From the NCBI RefSeq assembly GCF_002804105.1, contig NZ_CP024964.1:62001-126000 (forward strand): a stretch of DNA of 64,000 nt, read 5' to 3'. The notes beneath the pieces are model-generated. The model saw nothing but the letters and a program-made list of their open reading frames with translations. It was not told the DNA's origin and did not search any database. Positions 51,663-59,916 of the stretch are shown piece after piece. The translations under genes were made by a program, and so were the position numbers. The DNA comes from Mesoplasma melaleucae (lineage in GTDB: Bacteria; Bacillota_I; Bacilli_A; Mycoplasmatales; Mycoplasmataceae). Positions within the stretch are counted from its first letter, which is position 1, and every line of letters begins with the position of its first letter.

Positions 51663-53057
51663 ATGAAAAAACTACTATCTATTATTACATCATTAACTGT
51701 AGCTGCCTCAGCAACAACTAGTTTAGTTTCATGTAAAGTTATAACTAATTTGTTTAAAATTGAAATTAGTAATTGAGAAGCGGCAGGTGATTTAAAATAT
51801 AAATTCGATACAAAAGAAGGAATTTATAAACCTACACCTTATGATTCATCAACAACAGATGACCAAAAAAAAGCTAATGTTAAAAAAGCACTTGATGGAG
51901 CTTCTGGGACTTTTGCCTCATCTTTAGTTGCAGATATGATCAATTCTGTATTTTTTAACTCAGAATTAAATGTAACTAAAAATACAATTAAAACATGACA
52001 ATATCTTTTTAGAACAAATCAAGAAGGTGTTTATGCTGATGGTCAATTTAGAACAGCTGGATTAAATAGTTCACAAGAAGATGAAATAAAAGAATATTAT
52101 TCAAAAGTAACAAATATTTCTTCATTGTTAGGTTTATATCAATACACAAAATATACATCTACAGAATCTTCAACAAAAGCTGACGCTAACTTGACTAAAT
52201 TGTCTCCAGAAACAATTAATGAGATTGAAACAAGTGGAATTTTTAGTAGTTCTAATAATCAAGGAATTACAAATGTTAAAATAAACTTTACTCCTTCATT
52301 ATATGAAGGTAAAATTGGTTTAGGTAATTTGACAGGTGATACTGAAATAAAAAAATATGACTCAAATTATATTTCACCAACTACAAACTATAATGCTAAA
52401 ACAGCTAAAGAAACAGAAAAGGATCCTTCTAAGGGTTATAAAGAATATCTTGCAGGAACAAATATTGCTTATAACTTTTTCCAGCAATTAATGATTTTAG
52501 AAGTTAAATCTACTGATTTAGAATTACCAATAACTGTTAAAGAAGTTAAAGAACAATCTGAAACAAGTAAAAAAAATGTTAAAAAACAAGGGTTAATTTT
52601 AAATCCTAAATCATCAGAAAAAGCTACTGAGCCAATTGTTTTTGAATATACTACAAATGATAAGAAAGAAAAAACAGCATATTCATATGGTTACTCATTA
52701 GTTTCACTTGCGCCAATTGATTTAGAAATTACATATAATGATAATGTTGACTTAAAAACAGGTACACCCAATGGAAAAAACTATCTAATTGATTTAACTA
52801 TTGATGGCTTGAGTGCTGCATTTAAACCAATCTTAAACTTTACATCAAACAAAGATGAAGAAGATAAAACTACTACTTCAAATGGAACTCCATACATTGG
52901 TTGAAGATTTATGGGGTACCAATTCAATTCAAAAAATATTGTTGGATATAACGAAGATGGAACGTTATTTACTGAAAAACGAAGTAAAAAAATGACAGCA
53001 ACAAATAAAAAATTTAATGACTTCAATATTACAAAATTAGAATTTAAAGAAGCTTAG
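51663..53057 (+). CDS. Surface lipoprotein, unknown function
   Basis: 464 aa. Typical mollicute prolipoprotein start: KK, hydrophobic stretch, and lipobox LVSC (Cys24), so it should be modified by Lgt and anchored outside the membrane. The mature part is polar, rich in Ser, Thr, Asn and Lys, with no recognised domain; NNQGITNVKINFTPSLYEG and TYNDNVDLKTG suggest beta structure. Single-gene unit with promoter and terminator. AAGGAGG ribosome-binding site. Might be a surface antigen or a binding protein. Confidence 0.85.
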
Positions 53058-56791: not shown

Positions 56792-57412
56792 ATGAATAAA
56801 GAAGAAATATTAAAATTAGAGGCCGAGATATTATCATCAAAAGGACAATGATTTGTTGTTAACTCTCAAACAGGACATGAAGAAAAAGTTTTAAATGATT
56901 TAAAAAATAAAATTAAAGCTGAAAAAATGGAAGATCAAGTTTTTGATATTAAAATTTCAAAAGGATGAGTTTTAACTAAAGCTGGAAAAGAAAAAGAAAA
57001 AAACTTATTCCCAGGATACTTATTTATTAACATGATTATGTCTGAAGAGTCATGATTTGTTGTTCGTAATACTCCAGGAGTTACTGGATTTATTGGTTCA
57101 TCAGGACGTGGTGCAAAACCATTTCCATTAACAGTTGATGAAGTTGTTGAAATGTTAATTCCAAAAACTGAAGTAATTAAAGAAGAAACACAAACTGAAA
57201 ATGAAGCAGTTGCGAAAAAACCTTTATTCACTGCACCATTTGAAATTGGTGACTTTGTAAGAGTTAAAGAAGGAATCAATGCTGGTGAAGAAGGCGAAGT
57301 AAGTTCAATGGACTTTGAAAAAGGTGTTGCTGTTGTACTTATTGAAATGTTTGGTAGATATACAAACTTAGAAATCGCTTTTGATAGCGTAGAACCTGTT
57401 AAAGAATATTAA
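56792..57412 (+). CDS. nusG: Transcription elongation/antitermination factor NusG
   Basis: 206 aa. NGN domain: QWFVVNSQTGHEEKVLNDLK, LFPGYLFINM, VRNTPGVTGFIGSSGR. KOW domain at the C-terminus: FEIGDFVRVKEGINAGEEGEV. A 25-residue acidic/Glu linker lies between. Binds RNA polymerase and couples to ribosome protein S10 or Rho; here the S10 link is the more likely role. AAGGAG ribosome-binding site. Ends in a terminator. Confidence 0.95.
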
Positions 57413-57554: not shown

Positions 57555-59318
57555 ATGTCAAAAATTAAATTTATGGCACTTGGTGGACAAGATGAACGAG
57601 GAAAAAATCTTTATGTCTTAGACATTGATGACAACCTACTCATTTTAGATGCCGGTGTTAAATATCCTGATAAAGGAATTTTAGGTGTAGATATTGTTAC
57701 ACCAAAACTAGATTATTTAAAAAATAATAAACAAAAAATCAAAGGAATTTTTTTAACAAACTCAGCAAGTTACAACATGGGAGCTGTTCCATTTATTTTA
57801 AAAAGTATGGATGTTCCAGTTTACTGTAACGAAATTACTCAATTAGTTGGTAAAATTAAAATTTCTAGAATGCGTATTAAAAATACAAAAGACCAAAACT
57901 TTGTTGTAGTTAAAGATAAACAAATCTTAAACTTTGGAAATATTAAAGTTGAAGTATTTAGAACAACATCAGCTTCACCACAATCTTATGGTTATGCTTT
58001 CCATACAGAAGAAGGAACTATTGTTTATGCAGGTGATTACATTATTGATGGTAAAGAACAATCATACTTTTCAACAGATTTTAATCACATTAATGAAATT
58101 GGAAAAAAAGGTGTTCTTGCATTAATTGCTGATAGTGAATATGCTTCAAGAAGTGGTTTCACTGTACCTAATCATAAAATTGAGAATTTTATTTCTACTT
58201 CATTTAAAGAAAAGAAAACAAAAATTGCAATTGGAATTTTTGAAGAAGATATTTTTAAATTAGGTGAAATATGCATGGCAGCAAAAGAAAACAATCGTAA
58301 GATTGCTGTTTATGGAAGAACAATGACTGAAATTCTTAATTCAAACTTAATCAATGAAAACTTGAAAATAGTTTCAGATGATTTAATCACAGTTGAAGAA
58401 TACATGGAATCAGAAAATGGGTTATTAATTATTTCAGGAACAGGAGATATACTTTATTCAAAACTAGCAAAAATTGCTACAGGGAATGATGAAGTTGTTG
58501 AGTTTACTGAAAAAGATTTAATTATTTTAGCAACACCTCCAGCACCTGGTGTTGAAAAAAGACATGCTCAAATTCTTGACGAATTAGCAAGAACAGATGC
58601 AAGATTAATTGCTTTAAGTGATAGAAACATTTGATCAATGCATGCATCATATGAAGATGTAAAAGTTTTTACAAGTATGTTAAATCCAAAATACTTTATC
58701 CCAGTTAAATCATTATTTAAAGATTCATTAAAAGCTGAAAAAGCTGCAATTGAAGCTGGAGTTAATGAAAAAAATGTTGTGATATTAGACAATGGACAAG
58801 TTGCTAATATTTCAAAATCAGGAATTTCTGTTGCTGACAAAAAAGTTGATATTGGTAATTCATATGTTGACCAAGCAGGAGTTGGAGACGTTGGAGCAAT
58901 AGTTTTAAATGAAAGAAAACTATTAGCAACTGATGGTGTAATGATTATTGGAGCAACTATTGATACAAGAAATAAAGAATTAATTTCAATGATCGATACT
59001 CAAATGCGTGGAGTTTTATATATTAAAGAAGAAAATCCAATTTTTAAGATCATTCAAAAAGAAATTGAATTACTTTTAGAACAAGGACAAAGTCTATTTA
59101 AAGAATCACCAAATAAATATGATATAAATGAAATTAAAAAAGATATTGCAACAAAAGTTAGATCATTAATTAAACAAGAATCAGGTAAACAACCAATTGT
59201 ATTAGTTATCGTAAATGAATATGAAGGAAAAGACTACGTTTTTAAACCAAGAAATAATTCAAATAGAAATAACTTTAAAAATAATAATAATAATAATAAT
59301 AAAAAAGGATCAAATTAA
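57555..59318 (+). CDS. RNase J-family protein lacking the metal-binding His residues
   Basis: 587 aa, full RNase J layout (metallo-beta-lactamase, beta-CASP, C-terminal domain). The start ALGGQDERGKNLYVLDIDD and IVTPKLDYL match the family, as does HASYEDVKVFTSMLNPKYFIPV. The catalytic motif H-x-H-x-D-H is replaced by NSASYN (residues 69-74), and other conserved His positions are also lost (RTTSASPQS, VYAGDYIID, WSMHASYED). It should not bind the zinc pair or cut RNA. Like Bacillus RNase J2 it may serve as a partner of an active RNase J1 elsewhere. The tail is Asn-rich, encoded by an AAT run. Confidence 0.85.
59280..59300 (+). repeat. (AAT)7 microsatellite at the RNase J-like gene 3' end
   Basis: Seven AAT units encode seven Asn in a row near the C-terminus. 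Copy changes would keep the frame. Confidence 0.85.
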
Positions 59319-59333
59319 TTGATCCTTTTTTCT
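59301..59333 (+). terminator. Terminator of the RNase J-like gene
   Basis: AAAAAAGGATCAA/TTGATCCTTTTTT around ATTAA. The stem includes the last codons of the gene; the convergent gene begins its stop codon at 59332, so the structure can serve both. Confidence 0.85.
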
Positions 59334-59838
59334 ATACACAATACATAACAATTGTGAAAATTATAAATAACATTAAACAGATTGTAACAGTATTTCTTCA
59401 TTTAATTAAAATAGATTCTCTTTTAGTATAAGTCTTTTGGTATCTTAATCTTTTATCATTAAAATAATTAACTGCTTTTTTATTTCTCACATAATTAATA
59501 ATAAAGATTGTTAAGATTTCAATAAATAAAAATGCTGTAGCAACAAAAGCTGTTGCTTGTAAAAATCTTTTATCACTACTTAGGTTAGGAGCAATACTAG
59601 CAACATTTCTAAGGGCATATCCTAATCCAAAACTAAAACCAATCCCAATTAAAGTTATTAAAAAAATTGCAATTCAACTAATTCAATCTAATTTTTTATT
59701 TTCACGAAAATTTTTCATTTTTGTGTAATTTTCAGCTGCTTTTAAATCACTATTTAATTCTTTGTTAACATCCTTATAGTGCTTGTCTAGCCCTTCTTTT
59801 CTTAATTTCTTAAGGTTTTTTAATTCGTCCTTTGCCAT
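59332..59838 (-). CDS. Three-span membrane protein of unknown function
   Basis: 168 aa. Cytoplasmic Lys-rich start (KNLKKLRKEGLDKHYK, residues 5-20), then three hydrophobic segments (about residues 53-75, 91-114 and 148-167). AAAGGAG ribosome-binding site 6 bases before the ATG. Two Trp codons are TGA. No family recognised. Divergent from oppB. Confidence 0.75.
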
Positions 59839-59916
59839 ATTTGCTCCTTTCAATTGACTTACATACTCTTTTAGTTTATCATATTAAAAACTAATATAAA
59901 TATGGAGGCAAAGACC

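Follow-up and report, generated by a model that had tools for sequence, protein, structure and literature searches.

The 64,000-nucleotide stretch of Mesoplasma melaleucae DNA analysed here (the window) carries a gene for an RNase J2-type protein in which the metal-binding active site of the RNase J family has decayed. The same decay is seen in nearly all J2 proteins of the order, an intact RNase J1 is encoded elsewhere in the genome, and a J2 match is present in every genome examined. From the sequences, and by analogy with better-studied J2 proteins, we think it probable that the protein is a pseudo-nuclease retained as a structural partner of RNase J1. Published work is cited by PMC number and as excerpted.

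The gene and its surroundings

The M. melaleucae genome is a single contig of 845 kb, and its closest named relative, at 93% identity, is Mesoplasma grammopterae. The first-pass annotation had described a full-length RNase J homolog in an open frame, and this is borne out: under translation table 4 the interval given in Table 1 is exactly one ORF of 587 amino acids. The frame is open under that table only, as with table 11 the same stretch falls into pieces of 359 and 226 amino acids.

Table 1. Features of the J2 gene and its upstream neighbor, in window coordinates.
Feature	Position	Strand	Remarks
Gene for RNase J2-type putative pseudo-nuclease	57555..59318	+	587 aa, table 4
Putative nusG	56792..57412	+	label from sequence recognition; adjoins J2 gene upstream
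Former HxHxDH motif, now N69-S-A71-S-Y73-N74	57759..57776	+	alignment
Ser139, in place of metal ligand H142	57969..57971	+	alignment
Asp161 (= D164), single metal ligand retained	58035..58037	+	alignment
Glu334, in every J2 examined and in no J1 examined	58554..58556	+	alignment
In-frame TGA read as Trp360 (mollicute code)	58632..58634	+	only one in frame
His363, motif B His (= H368 of J1), retained	58641..58643	+	alignment
Lys385, in place of metal ligand H390 (motif C)	58707..58709	+	alignment
PF17770, RNase J C-terminal domain	58902..59219	+	residues 450-555

In M. grammopterae (locus L132) the order cysS-rlmB-secE-nusG-J2 is the same as at the window locus; among the 34 named loci (L132-L165), some of them on contigs that end early, a nusG hit upstream of J2 was found in M. 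grammopterae only. Convergent with the J2 gene, and lying between it and an opp-like transporter operon, is a membrane-protein-like ORF of 173 amino acids (window 59332-59853, - strand; these labels were assigned by eye). Further upstream, at window 51663-53057 (+ strand), is a 464 aa lipoprotein-like ORF with a signal peptide that ends in a Cys, likewise recognized by eye.

Family identity

The window protein matches the RNase J family model TIGR00649 with 425.2 bits (cut-off 400) over positions 1-545 of 546. Against the J1 model NF047419 it scores 362.2 bits, below the cut-off of 820; the J1 of the same genome, with 781.5, is also under that cut-off. The Pfam domains PF22505 (RNase J beta-CASP) and PF17770 are above cut-off, while metallo-beta-lactamase and RMMBL fall below it in the window protein and above it in the J1. 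When the sequences of solved structures were searched, J2 of Staphylococcus epidermidis (6k6w) came out on top, with an E-value of 4e-90, compared with 6e-77 for Bacillus subtilis J1. The AlphaFold model, built from 20 sequences, is of moderate quality (pLDDT 79.7, pTM 0.70). A Foldseek search with it found B. subtilis J1 (3zq4_A, E 1.6e-49), and the fold is matched over its full length, at 28% identity, in 3zq4 and in 9a5v, which we take to be the B. subtilis J1-J2 crosslink model. With VIA-align, the closest folds belong to S. epidermidis J2, whose entries align at Z 45-47 over about 430 residues (rmsd 2.2-2.6), and the model also aligns with entries for INTS9/INTS11 and CPSF73 complexes.

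A tree was built from 75 rows (13 J1 and 62 J2), with the ligand columns excluded and the root placed on J1 by choice. Support for the split of J1 from all J2 is 100/100; a single clade (100/99) contains all 53 mollicute J2 rows. As judged from these sequence relationships, the window protein is an RNase J2 by descent and not a new paralogue; it shares with J2 (RnjB) of Staphylococcus and Bacillus its subfamily in the tree, its best structure match and Glu334. An extra mollicute paralogue existing alongside J2 was considered and is ruled out by the tree together with the presence of just one further RNase J in the genome. The earlier description of the protein as "further degenerated than J2" calls for other wording, since it is the lineage's own J2 and the loss is nearly order-wide.

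The lost metal site

Ligands are numbered here as in B. subtilis J1 and were located by alignment to the genome's own RNase J1. For J1 of B. subtilis and S. epidermidis, the listed metal ligands are H74, H76, D78, H79, H142, D164 and H390 (PMC7864078, PMC5383250); in the window protein these positions hold N, A, Y, N, S, D and K, respectively. The alignment thus confirms the first-pass claim that HxHxDH had become NSASYN and that the other His ligands had been replaced too. Six of the seven ligands are gone, with D161 the sole survivor; the motif A Asp is also retained, as is the motif B His, a residue present in 32 of the 168 J2 copies of the order and missing from the majority. The fold and domain order are shared with RNase J1 (RnjA), but J1 holds all seven ligands and the window protein one, so it belongs to the RNase J family by descent and is not filed here as an RNase J enzyme. 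It also differs from staphylococcal J2, which is reported to keep HGHEHA, H144 and E166 and to bind one metal (PMC7864078), in having no His ligand at all.

The first-pass annotation had also proposed testing whether relatives share the loss, and they do. NSASYN is identical in all seven genomes of the genus, which, with the loss seen throughout the order, excludes chance or a sequencing slip. A pseudogene or frame error is ruled out by that same conservation and by the dN/dS values given below.

Distribution across the order

J2 matches were found in 60/60 genomes of the family and 148/148 of the order. For the site comparison, the order sample consisted of 148 genomes from the larger group plus 19 further family genomes, a J2 copy being defined as the RNase J match of a genome other than its J1 match. 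The 167 genomes yielded 168 J2 copies, one from each and two from G260; the 34 loci L132-L165, several of which duplicate genomes already included, were left out of this count. No locus assigned to J2 in this way had an intact site, so sorting by motif and sorting by score give the same two groups. Both copies in G260 (L078 and L079), which also has one J1, carry a K-P-S-type sequence in the place of HxHxDH.

The HxH pair is missing from 167 of the 168 copies, the exception being L196, and H79 and H390 are absent from all of them. None of the seven ligands is retained in 53 copies, one in 98, two in 16 and four in a single copy. What stands in the place of motif 2 is varied: 78 distinct hexapeptides occur, namely the HGHTQQ of L196 and 77 others, with 17 found within the family. 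In 13 J2 proteins of other Bacilli (L020-L032), the HxH pair is complete and the Asp is kept, while H79 and H390 are absent. J2 of L082, L084, L086 and L090 (the Spiroplasma ixodetis group and its kin) has an insertion of some 10-25 residues before the C-terminal domain.

The J2 of L196 (L246; genome G280) retains H74, H76, H142 and D164. For this assembly, completeness is put at 75% and contamination at 4%. A contaminant using the standard code is an improbable origin for the J2, as its own frame includes two TGA codons and other genes of the contig likewise stay open with table 4. In the tree it lies within a 33-row group separate from the Mesoplasma-Spiroplasma clade (100/100), with less than full support for the group (93/86) and for its own placement (83/99). 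If lost ligands are never regained, this position would mean that the J2 active site has been lost at least twice.

Selection and J2-specific residues

By a plain counting method applied to the 21 pairs from seven genomes of the genus, mean dN/dS is 0.046 for J2 (highest pair 0.070) and 0.022 for J1. J2 is under strong purifying selection. Its protein sequence changes about twice as fast as that of J1 (dN 0.027 vs 0.013). Across the order, the variability of the seven former ligand columns is near that of ordinary ones, with entropies between the 19th and 85th percentiles of 529 J2 columns.

Glu334 is present in 168/168 mollicute J2 and 16/16 other J2 proteins and in 0/29 J1. Asp368 is Asp in all 168 mollicute J2 copies, in 81% of the 16 others and in 7% of the 29 J1. 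Glu334 together with a non-His motif C and a non-His residue at H79 marks J2 in these alignments, a definition found here and not taken from the literature; the window protein carries all three marks (Glu334, non-His at H79 and non-His at H390). Glu334 was not recruited as a substitute for the metal site, being equally invariant in J2 proteins that still hold that site. The J1-invariant residues of the STGSQGEP loop, which we take to be an RNA contact of J1, and those around H364/G367 have also been lost in mollicute J2. In the J1 numbering, H364, S366 and H368 are reported to recognize phosphate (PMC7864078).

The intact RNase J1, a presumed partner

The first-pass annotation had proposed searching the genome for a second RNase J gene with an intact HxHxDH, and there is one. 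It is the only other one, lies at contig position 707639-709402 and has HGHEDH, NHSIPD, TGD and PMHGE all intact; the window J2 is identical to it at 132 of 545 aligned residues (24%). The J1 motif is kept in 147/148 genomes of the order, as HGHEDH or HAHEDH in 146 and as HAHDDH in G338. In the remaining genome, G251, which is 77% complete, J1 was searched for and not found. All 27 aligned J1 loci have an intact site. In G307 (L245) the J1 frame is broken after an intact HGHEDH in a gene that is otherwise of full length, through either a sequencing error or a real frameshift.

In G314 (C1:844607-848171) J1 on the - strand and J2 on the + strand lie head to head with about 230 bases between them, an arrangement that gives a hint of joint expression.

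A probable role and its alternatives

In S. epidermidis J1, mutation of metal ligands abolishes activity (PMC7864078). As RNase J catalysis needs its metals and the ligands have been lost, the window J2 most likely does not cut RNA. According to the reading preferred here, the decay of the two-metal site and of part of the RNA-contact surface would have made cutting by the RNase J mechanism impossible, while the fold and C-terminal domain were kept. J2 would then be maintained through its pairing with the intact J1 of the same cell, and may stabilize J1 or steer its 5'-3' exonuclease. The interpretation in the first-pass annotation is supported in part, its scaffold or regulator role being a putative one.

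From the precedents in S. aureus and E. faecalis, we presume that mollicute J2 pairs with J1 and forms the dead half. S. aureus J2 is the closest, its active site being dispensable: the active-site mutant is reported to grow as wild type, while the J2 deletion strain is sick, and J2 is required for exonuclease action, which was interpreted to mean that J2 acts as a structural component of the J1-J2 complex (PMC3937233). J1-J2 heteromers are known in B. subtilis and E. faecalis (PMC5289998, PMC5383250), and active-site mutants of E. faecalis J2 still bind J1, with KD values of 81 and 89 nM vs 74 nM (PMC5383250). Pilus control in E. faecalis depends on J2 activity (PMC5383250), so J2 is not purely structural in every species; also counting against the preferred reading, S. 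epidermidis J2 is described as mostly monomeric in solution (PMC7864078), and L196 keeps its first metal site.

A similar arrangement is found in INTS9 and CPSF100, beta-CASP proteins with a ruined HxHxDH (NYHC in INTS9) whose paralogues INTS11 and CPSF73 are active; INTS9 has been termed a pseudoenzyme, and both are described as inactive beta-CASP partners (PMC7980224). As with INTS11/INTS9, one intact and one ruined beta-CASP metal-site paralogue are encoded in the same cell. The likeness is one of arrangement and not of shared descent, the window protein being a bacterial RNase J2 whose pairing with J1, by way of the C-terminal domains as in INTS11/INTS9, is presumed.

A pseudo-nuclease could also have a job independent of J1, as an RNA-binding or degradosome adaptor linking J1 or RNA to RNase Y, a helicase or the ribosome. 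The C-terminal domain of Streptococcus mutans J2 binds RNase Y, DnaJ and FtsZ (PMC6759994), and RNase Y is present in the M. melaleucae genome, but we regard such a role as unlikely. RNase Y is matched at 1e-20 or better in 91/148 genomes of the order, and at no better than 1e-5 in any of the 38 genomes of one family, f2, all of which have J1 and J2 (tables read by eye). A role tied to RNase Y is weakened by this absence, though a divergent RNase Y may have been missed; G278, for example, has no match although its relatives do. As J2 is kept where RNase Y was not found, J1 is argued to be its main partner. B. subtilis J2, moreover, is reported to enter the degradosome only via J1 (PMC5289998). 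The losses in the STGSQGEP loop and the H364/G367 region, which presumably touch RNA, also speak against an RNA adaptor.

That J2 is still an enzyme, using a new site of other residues such as Glu334, Asp368 or Asp161 and working without metal or with one, seems to us improbable. The invariance of Glu334 and Asp368 in all mollicute copies would fit such a site, as would S. epidermidis J2, which is reported to be active although its site is altered and binds a single metal (PMC7864078). But that one-metal site is made up of the three motif 2 His, H144 and E166, and the window protein lacks all four His; Glu334 is just as invariant where the metal site persists, and at the Asp161 position 48 of the 168 copies have N, S, C, G or Q. 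Least credible is a decaying gene near loss and kept by chance: the higher dN of J2 is what such a gene might show, but no pair exceeds a dN/dS of 0.070, and J2 was matched in every genome examined, at sizes of 0.4-2.2 Mb, where much else has been shed. The dN/dS values and the order-wide retention refute it for practical purposes.

Relation to earlier work and implications

That J2 can have a weak or dispensable site is already known, and both RNase J proteins have been counted among the RNases common to all Mollicutes (PMC4014445). No description of active-site loss in mollicute J2 was met in the literature searched, nor of an order-wide ruined J2 that no examined genome has lost or of Glu334 as a J2-only residue; subscription journals were little covered, and an earlier description is possible. 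The excerpts of PMC5436854 and PMC10278164 contain nothing on mollicute RNase J, and no paper turned up on RNase J in JCVI-syn3A.

More broadly, the nuclease J1 and pseudo-nuclease J2 may form an obligate pair throughout the order, reached by at least two separate site losses and equivalent, in bacteria, to CPSF73/CPSF100 and INTS11/INTS9; the chances of this we judge to be evenly balanced. If it is true, RnjB (MMSYN1_0257) of the minimal cell JCVI-syn3.0, whose retention was noted as "unexpectedly" (PMC4993169), would be an indispensable dead partner and not an RNase; that this protein is dead is presumed from the sequences of its relatives. The reason for two RNase J proteins in Gram-positive bacteria has been named as an open question (PMC5289998). 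To this the mollicutes, as a natural experiment, may give half an answer, namely that in them J2 is most likely kept for something other than RNase J chemistry, and their small genomes, together with the single residue Glu334, make a structural role of J2 directly testable.
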